A stretch of DNA of 22,608 nucleotides, from IMG/VR virus record IMGVR_UViG_3300042691_005865, positions 1-22,608 of that record. One strand, written 5' to 3'. Below the pieces are notes generated by a model that worked only from the letters and a program-made list of their open reading frames with translations, was not told the origin of the DNA and did no database searches. Below, piece after piece: positions 1-19,412 of the stretch; positions within the stretch are counted from its first letter, which is position 1, and each line of letters starts with the position of its first letter. This DNA comes from a virus. The position numbers and the translations under genes were made by a program.

Positions 1-1676
1 GCTTCGATGGGCAAGGCAATATCATTGCGGAGGTGCCACAGAAAGCACCTAGAGATACATTGGTTCAAGGCCCAGGTTTTGGCATGACCCCAGCGCCAAC
101 AGGTGGTCAGCTGTTACCTGCTTTGCCGTCTGTTACGCCTCAACCTGTAGGCCCACTTCCAGGTTTGCGTCCAGAGGTGACGGGCTTACCAGGGCTAGCT
201 CCTATATCTGGTGGATTGCCTGGGCTTGCGCCAGTACAGGGTGCTCTGCCTGGAGTCTCTTATACTGCTCCTACCGGATTGCCTGCGTTAGCTCCTACGC
301 CAACAACTGGACTTCCAGGATTAAATATTGTCGGCCCCGAGCAATTGCCAGGGTTGCCAACACCTGTGCAGCCTGAGTTGCCGCGTATATCGCCTATTGC
401 TCAAGTAGGCCCAGCATTAGGGCCTACAGCGCAAATGGCAGGAGCGTTAGCGCCTACAGCACAGATGGGGCCAGCATTGGGCCCTGTATTGCCAACAGAT
501 TTGCCTACAATCGGCGCAAATATACAGCAGGACTCTTTGTTCCAAGCGCTTAAGCGCGAGGCTATAGGCGGCATTGAAGCCTCAGCAGCGGCACGCGGAA
601 AACTGTTTAGTGGCACTACACCTCAGGCCATTGCTGAGCGCGTACAAAACCTTGCGCTGGCGCGTGCTGGTGACATTCAAGCTCAAAACATTGCCGCACG
701 TCAGCAGTTAATGGGTGAGGCTCAACAGCAGTTTGGTCAACAGCTTGCAGCTAGACAGCTTGGCGGTGCTGAAGCAGAGCGTCTTTTCTCCCAACAAATT
801 GCAGCGCAAGGCATGGCAGGCACAGAGGCCGAGCGCCTTTTTGCGCAGCAACTTGCCGCCCGCCAGCTTGGTGGTGCCGAGGCCGAGCGTGCGTTTGCCC
901 AACAGGTGCAAGCGCGTCAGATTGCAGGAGCAGAAGGCGGTCAAGCATTCCAGCAGGCCCTCGCGTTGCGTGAATTGGCAGGCTCAGAAGCGGCACGTCA
1001 GTTTGGGCAGCAATTGGCTGCACGCCAGCAACTTATGGGCGAAGGCGGTCAAGTATTTGGTGAGACCGTTACCGCTCGACAGCTTGGCAGTGCCGAGGCT
1101 CAACAAGCATTTGCGCAACAAATGGCACTACGTCAGCTTGCCGGTGCAGAGGTTGGCGATGTGTTTGGTCGCAGCCTTGCGGCTCGTCAATTGGCAGGCG
1201 CAGAAGCTGGAGACATATTTGGTCGAAGCTTGGCAGCGCAGCAACAGGCGGCAGCGTTACAAGGTCAGACCTTTGGTCAAAGCTTAGCAGCGCGTCAGGC
1301 GCTATTGGCTCAACAGCAGCAACAGCAAGCCACAGCTATGGCGTTACGCAGTCAGTTGATAGGCGAGCGTGGGACGCTGTTTGGGCAAGAGCTTGCGGCG
1401 CGTCAGGCATTGCTTGGCGAGCGCATCGGCGAGCAAGAGCGTCAATACCAGCAGCTTTTCAATCTCGCTCAGCTTGGTCAGGCGGCGGCAGCAGGCCAAG
1501 CGGCAGGCATACAGTCGGCAGCTGGAAACATTGGCGGTTTGCTGGGGCAGCAAGCAAATGCATTGGCAGCAGCACAGGTTGGCGCTGCAAACGCTCAGTC
1601 TCAAATGTTCCAAGGTCTGCTAGGCGCTGGCGCTACATTGGGCGCAGCAGGTCTTATTGGCGGCAAATTTGGTTAA
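1..1676 (+). CDS. Repeat-rich putative internal virion (ejection) protein, 5'-partial
   Basis: The reading frame is open to the left edge (codons from base 3 read FDGQGNIIAE before the GTG at 33), so the GTG is probably an internal valine and the true start lies outside the window. Numbering from that valine, residues 41-153 are degenerate Pro/Leu/Gly repeats of about 10 residues (GLPGLAP type, then GPALGPTAQM type). Residues 221-472 form 14 consecutive 18-residue units close to AARQLGGAEAERLFAQQL. The C-terminus is Gly/Ala rich and ends GLIGGKFG. No enzymatic motif is visible. Eighteen residues equal five alpha-helical turns, so a very long helix or helical bundle is expected. Position directly upstream of two other large Ala/Gln-rich proteins and a tail fibre suggests a virion or DNA-ejection protein; that role is inference. 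Repeat copies differ mostly at silent sites, so they are old and kept at protein level. Confidence 0.75.
   Translation, partial: FDGQGNIIAEVPQKAPRDTLVQGPGFGMTPAPTGGQLLPALPSVTPQPVGPLPGLRPEVTGLPGLAPISGGLPGLAPVQGALPGVSYTAPTGLPALAPTPTTGLPGLNIVGPEQLPGLPTPVQPELPRISPIAQVGPALGPTAQMAGALAPTAQMGPALGPVLPTDLPTIGANIQQDSLFQALKREAIGGIEASAAARGKLFSGTTPQAIAERVQNLALARAGDIQAQNIAARQQLMGEAQQQFGQQLAARQLGGAEAERLFSQQIAAQGMAGTEAERLFAQQLAARQLGGAEAERAFAQQVQARQIAGAEGGQAFQQALALRELAGSEAARQFGQQLAARQQLMGEGGQVFGETVTARQLGSAEAQQAFAQQMALRQLAGAEVGDVFGRSLAARQLAGAEAGDIFGRSLAAQQQAAALQGQTFGQSLAARQALLAQQQQQQATAMALRSQLIGERGTLFGQELAARQALLGERIGEQERQYQQLFNLAQLGQAAAAGQAAGIQSAAGNIGGLLGQQANALAAAQVGAANAQSQMFQGLLGAGATLGAAGLIGGKFG
693..1448 (+). 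repeat. 14 x 54-bp coding repeat (18-residue helical units)
   Basis: Fourteen units in uninterrupted register, each 54 bp, encode the motif (A)ARQLxGAEAxxxFxQxL. Phe at unit position 14 and Leu/Ile/Val/Met at position 18 are the best kept, with Arg-Gln at 3-4. Units diverge strongly in DNA sequence, so this is not a recent slippage array. Confidence 0.85.
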
Positions 1677-8019: not shown

Positions 8020-8185
8020 ATTCCTTCATATCAAATAACTGAAGCAACTCTTTACGCAGTGGCGACACGTCCACTTCTGGATATGCTTCTGCCAGTAACT
8101 CCAAGTAGCGCAGTGCAATCTGCGCTTGGTTTGGAGATTCGCAGCTGTTAATGACAGCCCATGCTTTTTTAAGTAGTTCGCTCAT
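8012..8185 (-). CDS. Small hypothetical protein (57 aa)
   Basis: Begins MSELLKKAWAVINSCESPNQ and continues helical (AQIALRYLELLAEAYPEVDV) to FDMKEFK. The start overlaps the stop of the DUF3310 gene (ATGA at 8182-8185 on the minus strand), which supports translational coupling and a real gene. It is the last gene of the minus-strand early operon, ending inside the hairpin at 7993-8019. The composition is acidic to neutral and all-helical; no family is recognised. Confidence 0.65.
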   Translation of the reverse strand: MSELLKKAWAVINSCESPNQAQIALRYLELLAEAYPEVDVSPLRKELLQLFDMKEFK

Positions 8186-8487
8186 TTTGTCCTTCTTGCT
8201 ATTTCACGCTCGATGTACCAAACAGCCTTACGCAAATCTTCGATTTCATCGCCTTTTAACCCTGCACGCCATACATACTTGAGGGCATTACCAAGGCAAA
8301 AAGTCATGTGTTCCGTAATCTGAATGCACTCTATTCCGCTTGGATGTTGGGTGTAATGTTTTGGATGATTGACAGCATCATAGTGCTGTCCAGTATTGCC
8401 GTTCTGACCTATGTTAGAGTTACGCATACACGCTCCTGAGCAATTACCTTCTGGGTAGTTGCAGTCAAATTCTAAACATGGATTCAT
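8182..8487 (-). CDS. DUF3310 protein with Cys-rich N-terminus (101 aa)
   Basis: Residues 36-101 match the phage DUF3310 family: NHPKHY (40-45), GNALKYVWRAGLKGD (66-80) and DLRKAVWYIEREI (84-96). The family is often annotated as a nucleotide kinase, without good support known to me. Residues 1-21 form an unusual extension with Cys4, Cys9, Cys16 and Cys20, which could bind a metal. The ATG follows directly after the stop of a 25-residue membrane peptide (TAAATG), and its stop overlaps the next gene. It belongs to the early minus-strand operon downstream of the promoter at 8596-8624. Confidence 0.85.
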   Translation of the reverse strand: MNPCLEFDCNYPEGNCSGACMRNSNIGQNGNTGQHYDAVNHPKHYTQHPSGIECIQITEHMTFCLGNALKYVWRAGLKGDEIEDLRKAVWYIEREIARRTK

Positions 8488-8595: not shown

Positions 8596-8624
8596 ATATT
8601 AAGTTTTACTTAAAACATTGTCAA
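8596..8624 (-). promoter_or_regulatory. Sigma70-like promoter for the 8565-8012 operon
   Basis: Read on the minus strand: TTGACA (8624-8619, a perfect -35), a 17-bp spacer, then TAATAT (8601-8596, 4 of 6 matches to TATAAT). It drives the micro-peptide, DUF3310 and 57-residue genes. The -35 overlaps the stop codon of the helicase gene. Operator candidates A1 and A2 overlap the spacer and the start region, so repression is expected. Confidence 0.65.
8599..8613. promoter_or_regulatory. Operator candidate A1 (TTAAG-N5-CTTAA)
   Basis: Perfect dyad TTAAG-TTTTA-CTTAA lying between the -35 and -10 boxes and overlapping the -10 box. Bound repressor would block RNA polymerase. Together with A2 it forms a 33-bp near-symmetric block (8581-8613). 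Confidence 0.5.
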
Positions 8625-9958
8625 GGACGTAACGCATCAAGAAGTTCATTTTGTTGTGCATCTTTTTGATGCAGTACAGTTATTACGCGTTCGTCTATGC
8701 CGCCCGAGGTAACTAAATGCACTATTCGCACTGGGCGCGTTTGCCCTTGGCGATGTAAACGAGCGTTAAACTGTTGGTAGAGTTCAAGTGACCAGTTCAA
8801 ACCAAACCAAACACATAGAGCGCCGCCGTCTTGGAGATTGAGGCCGTGACCGGCACTTGCTGGATGAGCCAGCAGCATACGAATTTTGCCAGCGTTCCAA
8901 CGAGCAATCGTAGACGGTTCTTTATCCAAAACAACCGCATCTGGGAAACGATCGCGTATACGGGCCAAGTCTGATTTATAGTTGTAAGCTACCAATACCG
9001 TCTCGTTGGGGTTGTCCTCCATGATCTCGGCCAAAGCGTCGAGCTTGGCAGCATGGAGCGCTGACCAATTACCCTTGTCATCAGTATACGTCGCGCCGTT
9101 GCACCACTGGAGCAGTTTGTTTGCCAGTACTGCCGCGCTGCTTGCTTCAATTTCTTGCCCGTCTGGTAACTCGGCTAGCAATGTACGTTCAAAGTTTAAA
9201 TATGCTTTTAGAGTTGCTGGCGGCAAGTAGACCGGCTCAACTAAATTAATGCGCTCAGGCAGTTGTAAGTAGTCGCTAGCGGCCATGCTTATCCATGAGT
9301 CGGCAAGCAGAGTGTGGATTTTCTCGGCGGCTCCGGCCTTTGGTGTGTGTTTGTAGCCCATAAAATCACCGTCGAAAAAGCGCTGTTTGTACGCTGTGTA
9401 TGTCTTGCCAAGCGCCATCCCTTGGTCGATTAGATACTGTTGCGCCCATAGGTCTAAAAGACTGTTTGGCGCTGGCGTGCCAGTAAGCAGCACCATATAG
9501 TTGGTCATCGGCAGTACGCGGCGTATAGCCTTCCAGCGCTGAGCGGCTTGTGACTTGAAGCTGCTCGACTCGTCGATAATGACGGCATCGAACGGCCATT
9601 TATCTCGGCAATGCTTCACTAGCCAGGGAACGTTTTCGCGATTGATGACATACACGTCTGCGGTTTTTTGCAAAGCTGTCAGGCGTTGGCGTTCTGTGCC
9701 AGTGCAAATAATCACTTTAAGACTTTGCAGGTGTGACCACTTTTTTACCTCTTGCGCCCATACGCTATTTGCGACACGCAACGGAGCTATGACCAGCACG
9801 CGATCTACTATGCAGCCGTCGAGTAGATCGGCCATGGCCGTGAGCGTCGATACGGATTTACCTAATCCCATTTCTAACGCGAGGCCACATCGACGTTTAG
9901 ATTTAATAAAATCTACTGTTCGACGTTGATATTCATGCAAGTCGTTAGGGGAAAGCAT
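8621..9958 (-). CDS. SNF2-like superfamily 2 DNA helicase/translocase (445 aa)
   Basis: The start chosen is ATG at 9958 (MLSPNDLHEYQ), which has GGAAG eight bases upstream and overlaps the VRR-NUC stop by 14 bases; an upstream ATG at 10018 would overlap much more. Motifs in order: Q-like LHEYQ (7-11), Walker A EMGLGKS (29-35), motif II DESS (129-132), motif III LLTGTPAPN (157-165), motif V GHGLNLQ (370-376), motif VI QQFNARLHRQGQ (395-406). This is a complete ATP-driven dsDNA translocase core of the SNF2 type, found in many phage replication modules next to a VRR-NUC gene. Likely role: fork or recombination-intermediate processing with the adjacent nuclease. The exact substrate is unknown. 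Confidence 0.92.
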   Translation of the reverse strand: MLSPNDLHEYQRRTVDFIKSKRRCGLALEMGLGKSVSTLTAMADLLDGCIVDRVLVIAPLRVANSVWAQEVKKWSHLQSLKVIICTGTERQRLTALQKTADVYVINRENVPWLVKHCRDKWPFDAVIIDESSSFKSQAAQRWKAIRRVLPMTNYMVLLTGTPAPNSLLDLWAQQYLIDQGMALGKTYTAYKQRFFDGDFMGYKHTPKAGAAEKIHTLLADSWISMAASDYLQLPERINLVEPVYLPPATLKAYLNFERTLLAELPDGQEIEASSAAVLANKLLQWCNGATYTDDKGNWSALHAAKLDALAEIMEDNPNETVLVAYNYKSDLARIRDRFPDAVVLDKEPSTIARWNAGKIRMLLAHPASAGHGLNLQDGGALCVWFGLNWSLELYQQFNARLHRQGQTRPVRIVHLVTSGGIDERVITVLHQKDAQQNELLDALRP

Positions 9959-10208
9959 CAACTGCTTCCAGAGTATCAATAACGCGTACATCACAACCCA
10001 ATGCTCGTCGGCGCTCATGATCGCGTTGTTGGTTTTCAGTTGGTTTTGCGCCTGGGGCCTTTAACTCGACAAAAATAATACGGCCACCAGGAAGTGTTAC
10101 AATTCGATCTGGAACACTGCGTTTGTTTGGACTAGTAAACTTTTCGGCCATGCCTCCAAGTGTTTTAACGCGTTTAACTAATGCTGTTTCGATATGCTTT
10201 TCAAGCAT
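9945..10208 (-). CDS. Stand-alone VRR-NUC nuclease (87 aa)
   Basis: A minimal PD-(D/E)xK nuclease domain with SVPDRIVTLPGG (Asp34) and IIFVELKAPG (Glu48, Lys50), followed by the QRDHERRRALGCDVRVID helix-strand. Length is typical of free-standing phage VRR-NUC proteins. ATG at 10208 has GAGG six bases upstream; a TTG at 10214 is possible but lacks better support. It overlaps the polymerase stop at one end and the helicase start at the other, so the three are translated from one message. The family acts as structure-specific endonucleases; cutting of branched DNA is inferred. Confidence 0.92.
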   Translation of the reverse strand: MLEKHIETALVKRVKTLGGMAEKFTSPNKRSVPDRIVTLPGGRIIFVELKAPGAKPTENQQRDHERRRALGCDVRVIDTLEAVDAFP

Positions 10209-11970
10209 AACCAACCTCTTGTAATAGTTCCTGGGCAGCTTTTATATAAACCGCATAATTTACGTCATTTGGAAATCCGCAAAACTCCATGACCGGCTTC
10301 GCGCCGCCTGAGTTCGGCACGCGGTTATTGTTGGTCGCATAATGAATACACTCGTCTGGTAGTACAGTCGTTGAGTGATAGAAGCGCACAGCTTTACCCA
10401 GTCGCTCATGTCTCCACATCGCGCCACCTTGCACGCGCCGTATGGTGACAAACTGTGTGAGGTCAGTACAACCGTGTATTGTCTCTTCAATGGGCGTACC
10501 CTTGGCAATGTGCTGCGCTACGGCGGTATAAATGATCTGGCCGTCTGGGTTTTTGGCGAGGCTGGCGGGAGCGAAAATGCCCTTACCCTTGATCTTGCCG
10601 TCAGTCCTCACGGCGACGTAGTTATTCACGTCGCGGCTGGCAATGACGCTGTACGCTGTGCGCTCCAATTGGTAACTAGTGTCGAGCATCCAGTCAAACG
10701 TAATTTCATCCACTACATCGGCTTGTGCCGTAGAGTGGCAAACGACAATGCCGTCAGTGTTTGCGCTAATCACCCGCACGCCTGCGACCTCAAGCCGTTC
10801 GATTAGCATAAGTAGCGCAAGTTGGCCGGTAATTGTTGTCTGAATAAGTAACTCGGGCGCGTAAAGTGTGCTGTACTTCGACCCGAACTTGCCGAAAGAG
10901 CCATTGAGCGTAATCTTGAGCGTATCGGCTGTTACTTTATCGCCGGAGCGTTTGGCAGCAAGGCGGCGATTAATCAGGGACTGATATAGCGTCAAAAACG
11001 GTTTGCCAAACGCTCCTGGCGCAAGCTGTTGCTGCATGATGATTGATGGGTAATAGGAAGCTACATCGTAGTCTGCCAGTACCATGCCGCCGTCAGTCTT
11101 GACGCACTGGCGTTGCTCGCAGGAGTGCAGACCACCAATGCCCATTTGATATTCAGCTTGTCCGATCTGGATACGAGATTCTTTTAACCACATTGGCATT
11201 TGGACGGACCCATTTGGCCCAAGCTGCCAATTCTCAGCCATTATTCGTTTAAACACGCCTGTCAGGTATGGTGACTGAAACTTAATAATTTTGGGGTCAC
11301 GGTATTTAAACGTGTACCCGTCTTTAAGTTCTGGTTTTCGGTATTCTTTGCCGGTTAGTTTTTTAAGCTCATGTGTAATTAATTTCTCGGCAATCTGCGC
11401 ATCTGAAAGACTGCGAAAATCCATATTATATTGCTTGCCCATATCTACACGTAGATCAATCTGCGGCTTGAGTGCCCTGTAAAGCAGGTGCGTGGTATGT
11501 AGATCGTTCTCGCAATATTCGCGCACAATAAAACGTTGTTCTTGATTGATGCTAGCGTCTGGCTCAATCGGCAAATCTTGCATTTTTGGAGCATTAAGTC
11601 TTCCGCCGTAAATCTTTAAACTCGATTGTCCAGGTGCAACTTCGATAAGGTCAATGTGGTCCCAAGAGTCGGGTATACGCAATTCGTATGTTTTTAAGAT
11701 GCGCCAGATCGATTCGTTAGACTTGATAATAGTGTCGGCTAGTTTCTTTATTTGCGTAATGCTGTAATTATTCAACGCTGCGGCAAGTAATGGAAGATCA
11801 AAATGGTTACCATTAAAACTCATAGTTACATGCTTCATGAGTTTATGGAGGCGAGCCTTATTGATAGGTTGACCATCAAAAGCTTCGATATGAGTGATTT
11901 TGCCTGTCTCTATGTTGAGCGCAGAAACTAAAAAATAATCCGAGTAAATTTCGGTATCAATAATGAGCAT
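10201..11970 (-). CDS. Compact family B DNA polymerase with proofreading domain (589 aa)
   Basis: Exonuclease motifs: Exo I D5-T-E7, Exo II N53-x3-F57-D58, Exo III Y152-x3-D156. Polymerase motifs: YxGG-like YQMGIGGLHS (274-283), motif A D302-VAS-YYPSI, motif B K352-x3-N356-x3-G360, motif C N404-T-D406-G, and a KxKG segment at 459-464. These are family B signatures, not family A. Motif A to motif B is only about 50 residues, so the long TPR1 insertion of protein-primed phi29-like enzymes is absent and an ordinary primer is expected, probably made by the VapE/PrimPol protein. Motif C has Asn where DTD is usual; the essential second Asp (406) is kept. AGAGG lies nine bases before the ATG. Confidence 0.92.
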   Translation of the reverse strand: MLIIDTEIYSDYFLVSALNIETGKITHIEAFDGQPINKARLHKLMKHVTMSFNGNHFDLPLLAAALNNYSITQIKKLADTIIKSNESIWRILKTYELRIPDSWDHIDLIEVAPGQSSLKIYGGRLNAPKMQDLPIEPDASINQEQRFIVREYCENDLHTTHLLYRALKPQIDLRVDMGKQYNMDFRSLSDAQIAEKLITHELKKLTGKEYRKPELKDGYTFKYRDPKIIKFQSPYLTGVFKRIMAENWQLGPNGSVQMPMWLKESRIQIGQAEYQMGIGGLHSCEQRQCVKTDGGMVLADYDVASYYPSIIMQQQLAPGAFGKPFLTLYQSLINRRLAAKRSGDKVTADTLKITLNGSFGKFGSKYSTLYAPELLIQTTITGQLALLMLIERLEVAGVRVISANTDGIVVCHSTAQADVVDEITFDWMLDTSYQLERTAYSVIASRDVNNYVAVRTDGKIKGKGIFAPASLAKNPDGQIIYTAVAQHIAKGTPIEETIHGCTDLTQFVTIRRVQGGAMWRHERLGKAVRFYHSTTVLPDECIHYATNNNRVPNSGGAKPVMEFCGFPNDVNYAVYIKAAQELLQEVGYA

Positions 11971-12024: not shown

Positions 12025-12555
12025 TTAGAAGAAGGCGTCGTCTTCATCGTCGAATGCGTTGAATGCGTTGAACTCTTCAGCACTTGTTCCACCGTCACCA
12101 AACGGCTCACCGTCACGTACAAATTGCACGCCATCAAGCTGTGCGTTTATGCGCTTACCGTACTGATTGTTTTGCGCCCATAATGTAATTATTCCATTAA
12201 CATAACATCCAGCGTAAATAATATTATCATCTTCGCTGATGGCGCTTTTATCTCGATTAATAACTAATGGACGCTTTTTAGTAGACGCTTTGATCGTCAT
12301 TTTACCCGCGTATTCGGGACGGTCCATCTCGTCGCCATCTTTTAAACAAAGTTTATCTGACGCAACTTTACCCTTTAGTTCGTCTTTCTGTAATTTGGCT
12401 ATTACAGCTTCAATTTCAGAAATGGTCTTGGCATGATCTTTCTTATCAAGAATAAACGTAGCTTCGTATTTGCCAGTAGATTCACCGCCAAATGAAGCCA
12501 TTTGAAAGAGCGAAGGAAAAGAAAGGCGTGCAGAAGGGATTTTAACTTTAGACAT
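12025..12555 (-). CDS. DUF2815 ssDNA-binding protein (176 aa)
   Basis: The N-terminus MSKVKIPSARLSFPSLFQMA and the segments KYEATFILDKKDH, RPEYAGKMTIKAS, AGCYVNGIITLWAQ and NAQLDGVQFVRDGEPFGDG follow the DUF2815 family, a predicted OB-fold-type phage ssDNA-binding protein. The C-terminus is acidic and ends DDEDDAFF, like the protein-interaction tail of bacterial SSB. It should coat ssDNA at the fork and recruit partners such as PolB or the nucleases. GGTAAAAA precedes the ATG. An operator-like dyad sits upstream at 12600-12614 and a terminator just downstream, suggesting separate, high-level control. Confidence 0.9.
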   Translation of the reverse strand: MSKVKIPSARLSFPSLFQMASFGGESTGKYEATFILDKKDHAKTISEIEAVIAKLQKDELKGKVASDKLCLKDGDEMDRPEYAGKMTIKASTKKRPLVINRDKSAISEDDNIIYAGCYVNGIITLWAQNNQYGKRINAQLDGVQFVRDGEPFGDGGTSAEEFNAFNAFDDEDDAFF

Positions 12556-12617: not shown

Positions 12618-13748
12618 TTAAAGTGTGTCAAATTCTGAAGCAATATCAAATATTGACGGTCTGGAATCGGACTCTGGCGCAAGAGTCGGTTTACCTTTTG
12701 GCTTTTCAATAAGATCAGAAATATCAGGTATGCGTTTTTTGCCGAGTGCTTTTTCTGCTTTTGCTACTGATAAAATTTTACGTTCAAACGCATCATTTCC
12801 GAGCAATGAAATAAGACGTTTTTCGGCTTCAGCATCGTTAGACCATTGGCGCAAACTTCGCCCTTCCACAAGTTTATAACCAGGAAATGTGCCAGATTCA
12901 TTAATAATTGACGATATATGATCTTCTACAGCATCAAGCCAAGAAACAATTAATTTCTTTGCATCCATTGCTTTGCGTAATTGTTCGTTTGTTAGTTTAT
13001 CTGGATTTTGTAGTGTTAAATCATCAAAACTGCTCATTAGTACATTTTCCGTATGTTTTGCTAATGCGGGGCATGTTGCTTTTGCTTTGCAGAACTGGCA
13101 CTGCTTTTCACCAGGAATGCGCGGAGCATTTGGTTTTAAAGCCTCTTCAGCAGAGCGTTTAATCCACTCGCCTAATGCTAACAATTCATCTCGCGTCAGT
13201 CGCCATTCGCTAATATGATCTATGCGCGGCTGTACTATATGTACGTGGAAATATTCAGGGTCATAAAAATCAAAACGTTTCAAAGCACCTAGCGCATAAA
13301 GTATTGCTTGTGTGTTTTGATAAGCGTCAACCATTACGCCTTTGCCATATTTAAAGTCGATTACATGGACTGTTGTACCATCAAAAGCTAGTGCATCTGC
13401 TGTGCCGAATCCTTCTGGAACATAATCAGAAAAGTCTAATCTTACTTCCTGATCAAGATCGCAATTTTTACCAACAGTAATTACATAGTCTACATAAGCC
13501 TGTACTGCCGCGCACATTTCATAACTAACTGTTAAAGCATCATGTGTAGGATGCTTTAAACCTTCATATTGAAACGCAAACAAATGAGGGCTATTAATCA
13601 ATACGTGTTCTGCTAACTCATGCGCAGCCGTTCCTTCATCTGCAAAATGCGAACGCGTATCTGGTAATCCTTCTTCTGCTTTTACTGAACCTGGGCAATT
13701 AATCCAACGATGAGACCCACTAGCAGATAGTTTTGCGTGAGCTTTCAT
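12618..13748 (-). CDS. DUF2800 Cas4/RecB-like nuclease (376 aa)
   Basis: The start chosen is ATG at 13748 (MKAHAKLSASGSHRWINCPG): it overlaps the upstream stop as ATGA and has GGAGG seven bases before it; an upstream start at 13787 is unlikely. PD-(D/E)xK motifs: His43 in EGTAAHELAEH, Asp118 in FGTADALAFDG, D131-F-K133 in VIDFKYGKG, and a QxxxY-like YQNTQAILYA helix (143-152). Cys18, Cys217, Cys220 and Cys226 have the one-plus-three layout of Fe-S-bound Cas4/AddB nucleases. Probably a DNA end-processing exonuclease working with the ssDNA-binding protein next to it in recombination or replication. The Fe-S cluster is inferred. Confidence 0.9.
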   Translation of the reverse strand: MKAHAKLSASGSHRWINCPGSVKAEEGLPDTRSHFADEGTAAHELAEHVLINSPHLFAFQYEGLKHPTHDALTVSYEMCAAVQAYVDYVITVGKNCDLDQEVRLDFSDYVPEGFGTADALAFDGTTVHVIDFKYGKGVMVDAYQNTQAILYALGALKRFDFYDPEYFHVHIVQPRIDHISEWRLTRDELLALGEWIKRSAEEALKPNAPRIPGEKQCQFCKAKATCPALAKHTENVLMSSFDDLTLQNPDKLTNEQLRKAMDAKKLIVSWLDAVEDHISSIINESGTFPGYKLVEGRSLRQWSNDAEAEKRLISLLGNDAFERKILSVAKAEKALGKKRIPDISDLIEKPKGKPTLAPESDSRPSIFDIASEFDTL

Positions 13749-14092
13749 TGTATTGCCTCCAATGCTGTTTTTAGTTTTGGCAAACAATCAGTGGGCACTT
13801 TGCTTAAAGTTTTTGCTCCACCAAACGAATTGATTAGCTCTTTAATCTTTGGCTTAAGATTTTGGTCTTTGCGTACCAACTCAGTACATAACGCTTGCAA
13901 GTCATCAATTGTTACAGGTGTTGATGTGACTTCTTCTGAGGCTACTGGTGGATGCTCAGGAATGCTTGGCTGCTCAGGAATGCTTGGAAGTGCTGCATGT
14001 GACACGCCTATTAAAGTTGCTGTAAGTCCATTTATTGCTTCCCGTAGTGATGCAATTTCTTGGCGCAAATTGGTAATTTCTACTTCTAACAT
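13745..14092 (-). CDS. Coiled-coil protein, unknown function (115 aa)
   Basis: Residues 1-30 form a leucine-rich coiled coil (MLEVEITNLRQEIASLREAI). Residues 36-58 are a Pro/Glu/Ser linker with a duplicated PSIPEQ/PSIPEH unit. Residues 60-115 form a compact helical domain (TIDDLQALCTELVRKD, then KELINSFGGAKTLSKVP). That C-terminal module is familiar from small phage proteins of unknown function. Start ATG follows AAGGAA, and its stop overlaps the DUF2800 start, so it heads the replication operon. Probably multimeric through the coiled coil; a role as a nuclease cofactor is only a guess. Confidence 0.75.
   Translation of the reverse strand: MLEVEITNLRQEIASLREAINGLTATLIGVSHAALPSIPEQPSIPEHPPVASEEVTSTPVTIDDLQALCTELVRKDQNLKPKIKELINSFGGAKTLSKVPTDCLPKLKTALEAIQ
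13953..13988 (-). repeat. 18-bp tandem duplication in coding sequence
   Basis: Two adjacent copies of TGCTCAGGAATGCTTGG plus one base, 17 of 18 identical, encoding PSIPEQ and PSIPEH in the linker of the coiled-coil protein. Near-identity implies recent slippage. Confidence 0.8.
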
Positions 14093-14140: not shown

Positions 14141-14165
14141 AACATTTGTAATGTTAAGCTATGAT
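14137..14165 (+). promoter_or_regulatory. Promoter of the HTH regulator
   Basis: TTTAAA (14137-14142, 4 of 6 matches to -35), 17-bp spacer, TATGAT (14160-14165, 5 of 6 matches to -10). Transcription from here would begin near 14172 and favours translation from ATG 14194 over the ATG at 14161. It is flanked and overlapped by operator candidates B1 and B2. Confidence 0.5.
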
Positions 14166-14168
14166 TAA
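14154..14168. promoter_or_regulatory. Operator candidate B2 (TTAAG-N5-ATTAA)
   Basis: TTAAG-CTATG-ATTAA, one arm mismatch, covering the -10 of the regulator promoter. Over 19 bases (14151-14169 versus 8578-8596) it matches the A2 region at 16 positions. Confidence 0.45.
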
Positions 14169-14193
14169 AGAGTCGTCAACTTTGGAGAGCGTT

Positions 14194-14394
14194 ATGGATA
14201 AAGAAACTGATCAGTATGAGAGGGTGATTGCCTATTTTGGCTCCCAAGCCAACGCAGCTAAGGCTTTAGGCATATCTTCTGCTGCTGTTGCCCAATGGAA
14301 GATAAAAGCAATTCCTCCGCAACGTGCTATACAAATAGAGGCATTAAGTCAGGGCAAGATCAAAGCGTTAGAGCTAATACCTAGCCTCAAATAA
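14194..14394 (+). CDS. Cro/YdaS-like HTH transcriptional regulator (66 aa)
   Basis: A small helix-turn-helix protein. Residues about 12-40 (IAYFGSQANAAKALGISSAA) carry the helix-turn-helix, continuing VAQWKIKAIPPQRAIQIEAL, the pattern of the YdaS/Cro family in which recognition-helix Gln/Trp is followed by a Pro-rich turn and IE. ATG at 14194 has GGAGAG six bases upstream; the in-frame ATG at 14161 lies inside the -10 element and lacks a ribosome site. It sits between the minus-strand replication operon and the plus-strand VapE gene, the usual place for a switch regulator. Dyads B1 and B2 around its promoter suggest autoregulation, and the same dyad elsewhere suggests regulon-wide control. 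Confidence 0.85.
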   Translation: MDKETDQYERVIAYFGSQANAAKALGISSAAVAQWKIKAIPPQRAIQIEALSQGKIKALELIPSLK

Positions 14395-14455: not shown

Positions 14456-14470
14456 TTAAGTATAACTTAT
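14456..14470. promoter_or_regulatory. Operator candidate C (TTAAG-N5-CTTAT)
   Basis: TTAAG-TATAA-CTTAT, one arm mismatch, ending on the second base of the VapE start codon and overlapping a TATAAC -10-like hexamer. Binding here could block transcription entering the VapE gene. Confidence 0.4.
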
Positions 14471-16583
14471 GAACTCTACAAAGACCAAAACATCACACAT
14501 TTTTAATGTGTTTCCAGTGAATTTAATCCATACAACAGGTAAGGATAAGCCGGAAAAAAAGCCCGCTGTGCGAGGTTGGCAGTCACATATGGCTGCTGTT
14601 GAAGATTTAGCTTTCTCTCAAAACATAGGTGTCGGTGTCCCAGAATCTCACGTTTTTATTGATCTCGATACTTATAAGGGGGTTACTCGCGAGGCAGTTG
14701 ATGTTGCACTTGGCGTAACGTTGCAGTGGGACGATGCTTTAATTCAACGCACAGTGTCAGGTGGCGAACACTATTGTTTTAAGCTTCCTGAAGGCGTTGA
14801 AGTACGGCAAGGTTCATCATTACTTGGCGTCTCAGGCTTCGATACTAGAACACATGGTAAGGGATGGATTTGCACAGGCGAAGGCTACGAAGACATGACA
14901 CTTGTTGGTATGCCAGAGGCTGTTTTTCTTGAATCATGGCCCATGTTGCCAGGATTAGCAGTCGAGCGTATGCAAGAAGTCGAAAGGTCTTTGATCGACG
15001 GAAAGGAACCACTTGGCTACACCGAAGAGCAATTGCGCGAGATTTTATCGGTTTTAGACCCGTCTCCTACCGCACGTGAAGATTGGTTAGCTGTTGGAAT
15101 GGCCTTACACCATGAGACAAATGGTAGTCGTGAAGGATTCCGTTTGTTTGATGAATGGTCAGGGTCACGAGACGAAGACGGAAAACTGCGGTATGCCAAA
15201 TATAAAGTCGATGATGTACGCAACGCATGGCAGAGTTTTAAACGCAAAGGCGCAGGCACCGTAACCACGGCTAGAACATTGCGAATGATGGCAGCTGAGC
15301 AAGGGCTTTTTGTTGACCCTCATCCGGTAAAAGCTGAAGACTTCGACGACTTTGAATGTGAGACATTGCCCAATGAAGTTGTAAGTACATCACTCAGATT
15401 TAAGCGCGATAAGAAAGGTAAGATTGAAGCCTCCTTAGAGAACGTTGATACCGCTTTAAGGTCGTTTGATTTCTGTGGCATGGATATACGTTTTGATCAA
15501 TTTCGCGATGAAATTATGTATTCCGAGCCTGGAACTAAAGCTTGGCGTGCCTTTGCTGATGCCGATTATTCCAGATTGCGAATCATGCTTGAGCGCCGAG
15601 GCTTTAAAGCTGTTGGACGTGAGCTTATACGTGATGCTGTCTTGCTTGTTGCTGATGAAAACCCTTTTGATTCTGCTATCGAATGGCTCGATGGGTTGGC
15701 ATGGGATGGACTCAGCCGTATTGATAATTTTCTAGTCGATTACTTTGGCGCTGAGGCAAGCTCATACACCACTGCTGTATCACGTTATATGTGGTCAGCG
15801 ATGGCGGGACGAGTTCTTGCTCCAGGATGCAAAGCCGATATGGTTCCGATTTTGGTTGGTCGTCAAGGCGCAGGTAAAAGCTCTGGCGTTGCCGCTATGT
15901 CTCCTGCTCCTGACTTCTTTGCTGAGATTTCATTCCACGAACGAGAGGAAGACCTTGCACGAAAGATGCGTGGTCGTTTGGTTGGAGAGATCGGAGAGCT
16001 TCGCGGCCTTCATACCCGAGAACTTGAGCATATAAAAGCTTTCATCACTCGCACTCATGAGAATTGGATTCCTAAGTATCGGGAGTTTGCCGTTTCATTT
16101 CCGAGGCGGCTTTTATTTGTCGGAACTACTAATCAGCAGGAGTTTTTGGCTGATGAGACTGGTAATAGGCGATGGCTTCCGGTGCAGGTTGATGGCGGCG
16201 ATGTGGTGGCTATTGAGCGCGATCGACTCCAATTGTGGGCAGAGGCAAGGGAGTCATTTAAGGCCAATGGGATAGCTTTTAGGGAGGCCGAAGAGCTGAG
16301 TAAAGCAGTCCATGAGCATCACATGATCAGGGATGCGTGGGAAGAGATCATATCGGCTTGGTTGGACGAACCGGACATGTTAGACGGCAAGCCTCCTAGG
16401 GAAAGAGGCAAAATAAAGACTGCGGATGTATTGATGGACGCCCTGAACTTCGACAAAAAACATATTGGTCGAAGGGAAGAGTTGCGTATCGGAAGGGTAA
16501 TGAAAGCTCTTGGATACGAGAAGAAGAAAGAACGACTTAACGGAAAACCAGAGTGGTGCTTCATTCCGAGAGCCCCATTCTGA
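14469..16583 (+). CDS. PrimPol-PriCT-VapE primase-helicase (704 aa)
   Basis: A multidomain replication protein. Residues 10-165 are an archaeo-eukaryotic-type primase-polymerase domain with IDLD (64-67), SGGEH (97-101) and GFDTRTHGKGW (123-133). Residues about 185-260 match a PriCT-2 domain (ILSVLDPSPTAREDWLAVGM). Residues 390-600 are the VapE superfamily 3-like ATPase: Walker A GRQGAGKS (464-471), acidic Walker B-like GEIGEL (506-511), sensor Asn555 in GTTNQ, and Arg finger candidate GNRRW (565-569). The C-terminal 100 residues look like a winged-helix DNA-binding tail. It can prime and unwind, so it likely acts at an origin; the TTCCAG repeats directly downstream are the candidate. The ribosome site is weak (AGG 14-16 bases upstream) and overlapped by operator candidate C. 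Confidence 0.92.
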   Translation: MNSTKTKTSHIFNVFPVNLIHTTGKDKPEKKPAVRGWQSHMAAVEDLAFSQNIGVGVPESHVFIDLDTYKGVTREAVDVALGVTLQWDDALIQRTVSGGEHYCFKLPEGVEVRQGSSLLGVSGFDTRTHGKGWICTGEGYEDMTLVGMPEAVFLESWPMLPGLAVERMQEVERSLIDGKEPLGYTEEQLREILSVLDPSPTAREDWLAVGMALHHETNGSREGFRLFDEWSGSRDEDGKLRYAKYKVDDVRNAWQSFKRKGAGTVTTARTLRMMAAEQGLFVDPHPVKAEDFDDFECETLPNEVVSTSLRFKRDKKGKIEASLENVDTALRSFDFCGMDIRFDQFRDEIMYSEPGTKAWRAFADADYSRLRIMLERRGFKAVGRELIRDAVLLVADENPFDSAIEWLDGLAWDGLSRIDNFLVDYFGAEASSYTTAVSRYMWSAMAGRVLAPGCKADMVPILVGRQGAGKSSGVAAMSPAPDFFAEISFHEREEDLARKMRGRLVGEIGELRGLHTRELEHIKAFITRTHENWIPKYREFAVSFPRRLLFVGTTNQQEFLADETGNRRWLPVQVDGGDVVAIERDRLQLWAEARESFKANGIAFREAEELSKAVHEHHMIRDAWEEIISAWLDEPDMLDGKPPRERGKIKTADVLMDALNFDKKHIGRREELRIGRVMKALGYEKKKERLNGKPEWCFIPRAPF

Positions 16584-18161: not shown

Positions 18162-19412
18162 ATGCAAGTCACATTACCTTACAAGCCACGACCTTTACAG
18201 CGAGAAATACACGCCTCACTGCGGCGTTGGAATTTGCTTGTCTGTCACAGACGCTTCGGCAAAACAGTTTTTGCAATTAACGAGCTGATTAAGCAGGCGG
18301 CAAAGTGCGATAAGAAAATGCCGAGATACGCTTACGTTGCGCCGTATTACAAACAAGCCAAACAGATAGCATGGGATTACCTCAAAGACTTCACGCGGCC
18401 TATTCCTGGCATAAAGATTAACGAAAGTGAATTGCGCGTTGATTTCCCATGGGGCGCTCGCATCCAGTTATTTGGCGCTGACTCGCCCGACTCAATGCGC
18501 GGCCTGTACCTCGACGGGGTGGTGCTTGATGAATACGCCGACATGTCCCCTAGAATCTTCTCAGAGGTCATTAGACCGGCGTTAAGCGATAGGGAAGGTG
18601 GAGCTATCTTCATAGGGTCTGCAAAGGGCGGTACGCCATTCTATGACCTCTGGGAGCGTGTTAAAGATGACCCCGATTGGTTTGTGAAGGTCTATCCCGC
18701 GTCAGAGACAAAAGTAATCCCCGAAGCGGAGCTGGCAGACGCTAAAAAGATCATGGACGATGATGAATACAACCAAGAATACGAATGCTCCTGGACTGCC
18801 TCGATCAAGGGGGCGTATTACGGTAAGCAATTGGCTGAGGCACATGAGCAGGACCGCATCGGTAAAGTGCCATACGACCCACGACTACCCGTACAAACGG
18901 CGTGGGATTTAGGTGTTGGTGACAGCACTGCCATATGGTTTTTCCAGGTGCTCGGGCAAGAGGTGCGCATCATCGATTTTCACGAAGACTCTGGCGAGGG
19001 CTTGCCGTATTACGCCAAAATCCTCGACCAGCGAGGCTACAAGTACGGTGATCACTGGGCACCGCACGATATACAAGTGCGCGAACTAGGCAGCGGAAAA
19101 AGCCGCATAGAGACCGCAAAGATGCTAGGGATACAGTTTCGTATCGTGCCTAACTTGAGCATCGACGATGGCATTCATGCGGTGCGTAATACCATTCCAC
19201 GCTGTTGGTTCGATGCCAAAAAGTGTGAGCTTGGCTTGCAAGCGCTTCGTAATTATCGCAAGGAGTTCGACGATCGACGTCAGGAGTACAAGCCGCGACC
19301 GTTGCATGACTGGTCAAGCCATGCTGCTGATGCGTTCCGTTACCTAGCGGTTGGCCTTAAAGACAAGCAAAAGGCCAAAACCACTTTGCAGCCTAAGCTA
19401 CAGCTGGCCTAG
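18162..19412 (+). CDS. terL: Terminase large subunit (416 aa)
   Basis: The packaging motor: an N-terminal ATPase that pumps DNA and a C-terminal RNase H-like nuclease that cuts it. Walker A-type CHRRFGKT (28-35), Walker B VVLDE (120-124) with catalytic Glu124, coupling motif GSAKG (152-156). Nuclease acidic residues are Asp249 in TAWDLGVGDST, with Asp271 or His302-Asp303 and Asp390 in WSSHAADAFRY as further candidates. Length is near the short end for the family. AGAGGA precedes the ATG. It packages DNA into proheads through a portal encoded elsewhere. The genes right after it are surface/tail-like and not the usual portal gene. Confidence 0.95.
   Translation: MQVTLPYKPRPLQREIHASLRRWNLLVCHRRFGKTVFAINELIKQAAKCDKKMPRYAYVAPYYKQAKQIAWDYLKDFTRPIPGIKINESELRVDFPWGARIQLFGADSPDSMRGLYLDGVVLDEYADMSPRIFSEVIRPALSDREGGAIFIGSAKGGTPFYDLWERVKDDPDWFVKVYPASETKVIPEAELADAKKIMDDDEYNQEYECSWTASIKGAYYGKQLAEAHEQDRIGKVPYDPRLPVQTAWDLGVGDSTAIWFFQVLGQEVRIIDFHEDSGEGLPYYAKILDQRGYKYGDHWAPHDIQVRELGSGKSRIETAKMLGIQFRIVPNLSIDDGIHAVRNTIPRCWFDAKKCELGLQALRNYRKEFDDRRQEYKPRPLHDWSSHAADAFRYLAVGLKDKQKAKTTLQPKLQLA

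Follow-up and report, generated by a model that had tools for sequence, protein, structure and literature searches.

A compact family B DNA polymerase with an Asn-type motif C in a phage replication module that carries either family A or family B enzymes

DNA polymerases of family A (PolA) and family B (PolB) can replace one another in place within phage replication modules. Among 126 genomes of a Casjensviridae clade, 96 with PolA and 30 with PolB, six inter-family swaps have been reported, with FoX4, PS6 and JS26 named (Yutin et al. 2024, PMC11348598), and the same swapping was reported for crAss-like phages in 2021 (PMC7886860). Within an EpsilonN-like clade, a 'crAss-like' group of PolBs has been distinguished, whose motif C and KxY are profoundly different (Kazlauskas et al. 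2020, PMC7544198). Here we analyze the PolB gene at positions 10201-11970 of IMG/VR virus record IMGVR_UViG_3300042691_005865, whose entire 22,608-nucleotide stretch is referred to as the window. An initial annotation had presented this polymerase as unusual for its module, a view that is not supported, given the published PolB/PolA swapping there (PMC11348598). A PolB group with this module has in large part been described already, through the swaps of PMC11348598 and the crAss-like group of PMC7544198. The case is therefore largely ordinary, and only two points may be new: a split between relatives with and without a sliding clamp, and a fixed Asn in motif C.

The product of this gene is very probably a replicative DNA polymerase from a tailed phage, namely a proofreading PolB reduced to the exonuclease (Exo) domain plus palm, fingers and thumb, and a member of a phage clade with the motif C sequence NTDG. 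A single open reading frame (ORF) of 589 amino acids in the window's ORF list covers the interval on the minus strand, and the plus strand of the same interval is riddled with stop codons. The protein matches PHROG_1252, 'DNA polymerase', across its full length (E 4.4e-180; residues 1-588 against positions 54-653 of the 663 in the profile), which bears out the annotated 589-residue family B polymerase. The Pfam families DNA_pol_B_2 (PF03175, E 8e-5) and DNA_pol_B_exo2 (PF10108, E 2e-4) match it below cut-off. PF00136 failed to reach E 0.001 anywhere in the window, so the PF00136 model alone would overlook this polymerase. The gene and its motifs, the latter placed by alignment, are as follows.

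10201..11970, minus strand: family B DNA polymerase (PHROG_1252 type, motif C NTDG), 589 amino acids, from the ORF, profile, AlphaFold2 model and Foldseek/VIA-align
11950..11958, minus strand: Exo I, D5-T-E7
11797..11814, minus strand: Exo II, N53..D58
11503..11517, minus strand: Exo III, Y152..D156
11047..11067, minus strand: motif A, D302-VASYYP
10891..10917, minus strand: motif B, K352-ITLNGSFG (K352..G360)
10750..10761, minus strand: motif C, N404-T-D-G (Asn for the first Asp, Gly for Ser)

The three Exo motifs of the window PolB are intact, as are its motifs A and B, and all five are invariant or nearly so among its relatives in the alignment. The initial annotation had called all of these motifs clear together with motif C, and for motif C this was wrong, as it reads NTDG and not the canonical DTDS found in six reference PolBs (T4, E. 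coli Pol II, phi29, PRD1 and two archaeal enzymes). The Asn is shared by all 147 relatives that remained after deduplication of 217 PolB loci (NTDG in 145, NTDS in 1 and NTDA in 1), including the crAss-like phage cr50. Two search patterns had yielded the bacterial-genome loci, and NTDG was part of one of them; it was absent from the patterns used for the IMG/VR loci and the phage records. At the KxY position the window PolB reads RDVNNY, with no Lys two residues ahead of the Tyr. With these two features the enzyme appears to fit the 'crAss-like' group as the cited text of PMC7544198 describes it. In our PolB tree, whose outgroup consisted of Pol II, T4 and two archaeal PolBs, the NTDG PolBs including a crAss-like phage PolB form one side of a 100* branch, with the four outgroup rows on the other. 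The cr50 enzyme thus resembles the window PolB in its divergent motif C and its grouping, but the two are only 26% identical over 585 aligned columns. In four loci from Bradyrhizobium and Mesorhizobium genomes (L192, L199, L209 and L212), PolB is broken across several frames, as in decaying prophages.

The predicted structure agrees with this assignment. An AlphaFold2 model of the window PolB, computed from an alignment of 28 window and IMG/VR sequences, reached a predicted local distance difference test score (pLDDT) of 93.0 and a predicted template modeling score (pTM) of 0.87. Its best matches in the Protein Data Bank (PDB) are archaeal B polymerases, followed by Pol alpha, Pol II, Pol delta and RB69, with a best Foldseek E of 4.9e-15 and a best VIA-align Z of 16.1 (452 residues aligned, root-mean-square deviation (rmsd) 6.2). 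The Exo and Pol domains of the RNA/DNA-primed fold of Pol II, T4 and archaeal enzymes are both present. The structural alignments begin at residue 137 of Tgo, 152 of Pol II and 110 of RB69, and the Exo I Asp of the window PolB is residue 5. By these alignments, the N-terminal domain that precedes Exo in Pol II, T4 and archaeal PolBs is absent from the window PolB, which explains why the enzyme is so compact.

The polymerase sits in a minus-strand run that comprises a 115-amino-acid gene, DUF2800, DUF2815, PolB, VRR-NUC and SNF2, with a regulator and a primase-helicase diverging from it. The DUF2815, DUF2800, VRR-NUC, SNF2 and VapE genes that had been annotated around the polymerase were all recovered by Pfam searches.

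8621..10018, minus strand: SNF2-family helicase (PF00176 E 3.3e-21; phrog_62 E 6.5e-154)
9945..10208 (ORF 9945-10214), minus strand: VRR-NUC nuclease (PF08774 E 3.7e-4, 21.0 bits, below the 23.8 cut-off; phrog_93 endonuclease E 6.5e-30)
12025..12555, minus strand: DUF2815 / Enc34-type T7 gp2.5-like single-stranded DNA-binding protein (SSB) (PF10991 E 1.4e-37)
12618..13748, minus strand: DUF2800, RecB/Cas4-like PD-(D/E)XK exonuclease (PF10926 E 3.9e-104; PF12705 E 2.6e-9)
13745..14092, minus strand: putative coiled-coil protein of 115 amino acids at the operon head, its position kept in many module loci
14161..14394, plus strand: Cro/YdaS-like regulator, divergent (PF14549 E 2.6e-18)
14469..16583, plus strand: PrimPol-PriCT-2-VapE primase-helicase, divergent (PF09250 E 2.3e-5; PF08707 E 2.8e-14; PF05272 E 5.6e-59)

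The in-frame VRR-NUC start codon at 10208 overlaps the PolB stop and the DUF2800 start codon overlaps the stop of the 115-amino-acid gene (ATGA), and these overlapping gene ends give the run an operon-like arrangement. The order DUF2800-DUF2815-Pol-VRR-SNF2 with divergent regulator and primase is of the Casjensviridae type and is shared by the window with Chi, FoX4 and JS26. In phage Chi, the regulator and primase are followed by DUF2800, DUF2815, PolA, VRR-NUC and SNF2. A PolB takes the place of Chi's PolA in six isolated phages: PHS21 and AL of Pseudoalteromonas, LP.1 and 1.017.O of Vibrio, FoX4 of Xanthomonas and JS26 of Serratia. An NTDG PolB is also present in PS6, another phage of the Casjensviridae, but it belongs to a more distant type. 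PHS21, AL, LP.1 and 1.017.O are the phages that most resemble the window in gene order and polymerase (PolB 42-48% and SNF2 54-57% identical). They differ in species and host, and the names given to their PolBs go no further than 'hypothetical', 'putative DNA polymerase' or 'ribonuclease H-like'; our literature search found no paper specific to PHS21. A paper on Alteromonas phage ZP6 was set aside because it concerns a PolA phage.

In IMG/VR, the order DUF2815-PolB-VRR-SNF2 recurs in 48 of 48 informative deduplicated loci. Among contigs from bacterial and archaeal genomes, 25 of 50 show the module order, 3 show it in part, 6 place PolB beside a clamp gene, 16 show neither context and none shows both. 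Three kinds of row were dropped before counting, namely near-duplicate PolBs, loci flanked on one side or the other by less than 2.5 kb, and PolB ORFs shorter than 450 amino acids. This left 48 of the 120 rows from IMG/VR and 50 of the 79 from genomes.

Outside the module, NTDG polymerases of the same family are found directly after a clamp gene. This is the case in Queuovirinae (CAjan, R7M and 9g), Lokivirus IMEAB3, Titanvirus RcTitan, Septimatrevirus DLP_1 and Rhizobium phage RHph_I36, where the clamp gene is annotated as processivity factor, replicative clamp, DNA polymerase III or beta subunit. The PHROG_1252 PolBs of Queuovirinae (Seurat/CAjan/9g), Septimatrevirus, Lokivirus and Titanvirus are 39-44% identical to the window enzyme; they differ in following a clamp gene, in usually bearing an N-terminal extension, and in lying outside the DUF2815/VRR/SNF2 module. 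The upstream clamp gene of these relatives is a reason to suspect that the module polymerase uses a clamp too. It might bind the beta clamp of the host at an internal site, or depend on an unrelated processivity factor that the phage encodes among its genes of unknown function. The same suspicion draws on the C-terminal beta-clamp motifs (QLxLF-like) of 4 of 31 PolBs classed as neither module nor clamp context, crAss cr50 among them. Such a motif also ends 1 of 15 clamp-context PolBs and the E. coli Pol II control (QLGLF). In the module itself the signs run the other way. A clamp profile (A4), run over the full length of 16 module records from 6 phages and 10 contigs of IMG/VR, found nothing; it matched all 5 clamp-context control records, a result positive by construction, as their clamps are in the profile. 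When four clamp proteins were compared with the window by tblastn, the best match had an E of 0.02 and lay off target, and none of 101 module PolBs ends in the QLxLF-like motif. The N-terminal extension is also mostly missing, with a median of 7 residues before Exo I in module PolBs (n=95, range 4-135) and 54 in clamp-context PolBs (n=15, range 10-122), lengths that may be overstated because counting began at the earliest start codon in each open frame. Exceptions occur in both groups, with 62-135 residues in six module rows and 10 and 30 in two clamp-context rows. Weighing these observations, we give the use of a clamp somewhat less than an even chance.

The contexts are strongly clustered in the PolB tree, with three changes between module and clamp across 132 rows (147 loci reduced to 128, plus 4 outgroup rows, with six truncated, broken or fused proteins left out by name). 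The clamp-context counts of N-terminal lengths, C-terminal motifs and clustering all ignore relatedness. QLxLF-like C-termini resembling that of E. coli Pol II are carried by four PolBs outside the module (L078, L171, L213 and L231), one of them from a crAss-like phage; L171 falls in the clamp clade of the tree, and its 10-kb contig holds no clamp. With neither a phage clamp nor the C-terminal beta-clamp motif found in the module records, processivity would rest with the enzyme alone or with partners, the SSB for example. We tentatively propose, while regarding it as rather doubtful, that the module PolB is a minimal clamp-free replicative polymerase, an Exo and Pol core with a motif C Asn that lacks the N-terminal domain, the N-terminal extension, a phage clamp and a beta-clamp motif and that owes its processivity to an intrinsic grip on DNA or to the DUF2815 SSB. 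If true, a single PolB clade moves among three modes of processivity, namely its own clamp, a host clamp reached through a C-terminal motif, and no clamp. The ability of PolB to trade places with PolA in the module would then stem from its independence of a clamp.

How the window lineage came by its PolB can be addressed through the neighboring helicase. A second survey, seeded with SNF2, found PolA in the same slot in many loci. Of 163 labeled loci that have an unbroken DUF2815-Pol-(primase)-VRR-SNF2 order, 28 carry PolA and 135 carry PolB; PF00476 was found in all 3 PolAs tested, in one of them slightly below cut-off. In a tree of 111 of these SNF2 proteins (26 PolA, 85 PolB), the polymerase label changes 8 times, at least 5 of them forced by starred branches, and the mean for shuffled labels is 24. 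One pair of loci represents a fresh swap: L060 carries PolA and L149 carries PolB, yet between the two the SNF2 proteins are still 74% identical, DUF2800 62%, VRR-NUC 63% and primase-VapE 66%. PolA and PolB are thus supported as exchangeable in the module slot over evolution, in line with the swaps published for Casjensviridae (PMC11348598). The initial annotation's premise that the module usually carries family A is half true, as it occurs with either family.

These in-place exchanges also lend some plausibility to a recent non-orthologous replacement, in which the close ancestors of the window phage had a PolA that was swapped for PolB. The trees largely refute such an event for this lineage, and we rate it as very improbable. 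The window SNF2 lies inside starred all-PolB clades of 48 and 55 rows, neither of which holds a close sister of the window with PolA in the slot, and the window PolB lies inside a starred 46-row clade composed entirely of module enzymes. From these placements, the window lineage appears to have inherited PolB with its module for a long time, with no recent swap seen. The annotated non-orthologous replacement therefore applies to the slot, where Chi has PolA and FoX4, JS26 and others have PolB, and not to the window's own branch. That branch resembles Casjensviridae in its module, where PolA and PolB alternate in one slot, and differs from them in the absence of a recent swap and in its TerL. 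The TerL gene (18162-19412, plus strand) encodes a protein 51% identical to that of Pelagibacter phage HTVC010P, which together with its relatives is closest among the best 12 matches listed; no Casjensviridae phage is among these 12. A profile search found none of the module genes in HTVC010P, and a TerL nearest to a phage that lacks them makes the window genome a mosaic.

The Asn at the first position of motif C raises the question of whether the enzyme is active at all. A degenerate or repair-only polymerase disabled by this residue is very improbable, in our estimate. The first motif C Asp is indeed missing, and archaeal B2 PolBs with one motif C Asp are considered inactivated in the cited text of PMC7544198; against this, the Asn is kept in every one of the 147 relatives, and the motif A Asp and the second motif C Asp are retained. 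The same text states that primer-independent PolBs without the first motif C Asp are highly active. From that statement and the clade-wide conservation, we infer that the NTDG polymerase is active. The kept exonuclease motifs, together with this conservation, speak against an inactive enzyme, short of proof.

Priming can be judged from the spacing of the motifs. Motifs A and B are separated by 50 residues in the window PolB, compared to 134 in phi29, 120 in PRD1 and 74 in E. coli Pol II, and motifs B and C by 54 residues, compared to 75, 90 and 54, respectively. The reference spacings were taken from pattern matches because MAFFT misplaced motif A of phi29 and PRD1 and the Exo motifs of T4; the pattern matches gave no A-B spacing for T4. 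By spacing, the window PolB lacks both a TPR1-sized insert between motifs A and B and a TPR2-sized insert between motifs B and C, as the annotation had noted for TPR1 and had left as a question for the two regions together. With neither protein-priming insert present, the spacing is as in RNA-primed PolBs. In one relative, L058 (5188-7041, plus strand), motifs A and B are 77 residues apart, compared to 50 in near relatives, owing to a 27-residue insert in the fingers region. An enzyme of the phi29/PRD1 type with a terminal protein is rejected as exceedingly improbable: although its small size (589 amino acids versus 572 for phi29 and 553 for PRD1) would suit it, the inserts are missing, primase-helicase and SSB genes lie alongside, phage AL is recorded as a circular genome, and the phi29 and PRD1 terminal proteins found no match by tblastn (best E 3.8 and 9.4), a weak test because these proteins diverge fast and the window is a fragment. 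Structures of the phi29/PRD1 type are absent from the best 50 VIA matches listed, which excludes nothing. An RNA/DNA-primed PolB beside PrimPol-VapE is thereby supported, in agreement with the annotated priming by PrimPol, and the hand-off itself would follow from this arrangement.

Together, the gene content suggests how replication may proceed. The PrimPol-VapE protein would unwind and prime the template, and PolB would extend and proofread these primers on a template coated by the DUF2815 SSB; judged by their families, DUF2800, VRR-NUC and SNF2 may process recombination intermediates and branched forks. An SSB function has been demonstrated for a protein of the DUF2815 family, Enc34 ORF6, whose C-terminal tail is acidic, and the acidic tail of T7 gp2.5 is implicated in contacts with the polymerase and the primase-helicase, both according to the cited passages of PMC5686142. 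The window DUF2815 protein likewise has an acidic tail, ending in DDEDDAFF. DUF2815 tails are equally acidic in PolA and PolB modules, with a median of 8 acidic residues in the last 20 in each, and a docking tail common to both could assist PolA and PolB alike in the same module.

Several points weigh against this overall reading of the gene. We found published biochemistry for no member of the window PolB clade, the motif C Asn could impair catalysis, and the VIA-align scores are moderate (Z of 16 at best, rmsd 5-10). Because the window is a 22.6-kb fragment, further replication genes may lie outside it. The check for a second polymerase in these genomes covered the analyzed loci, with a PolA profile. 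The trees are quick ones with branch support from the Shimodaira-Hasegawa-like approximate likelihood ratio test (SH-aLRT) only, and long branches were flagged. As sampling was seeded with the window PolB and the Chi SNF2, the frequencies of PolA and PolB are not population estimates.

With these points in mind, a replicative PolB in this slot indicates that the polymerase of this common replication module in phages can be drawn freely from either family, and it adds a large uncultured lineage, its nearest sequences coming from metagenome and metagenome-assembled genome contigs, in which PolB is the settled choice. Two questions follow, namely how so small a family B enzyme can remain processive when no clamp is encoded, and how the active site copes with Asn where motif C normally begins with Asp. 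A proofreading PolB of only 589 residues that needs no accessory clamp would be of practical interest if processive. In our literature search, we recognized no paper that states the NTDG motif or the split between clamp and no clamp for these phages, which is weak evidence of novelty; Figure 4 of PMC7544198 may well show the motif.

Other parts of the window gave further observations. The VapE half of the primase-helicase, from about residue 280, is approximately 60% identical to proteins of Yersinia phage YeP5 and APSE phages, and its primase N-terminal half is uncovered among the best 12 matches listed, making domain shuffling likely. Downstream of SNF2, a 101-amino-acid protein (8182-8487, minus strand) matches the C-terminal part of the 'nucleotide kinase' families phrog_236 and phrog_2781. 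Near the start of the window, a 547-amino-acid protein (33-1676, plus strand) with repeats rich in Ala, Gln and Arg (ARQLxGAEAxxxF-like) is probably a virion or tail protein.

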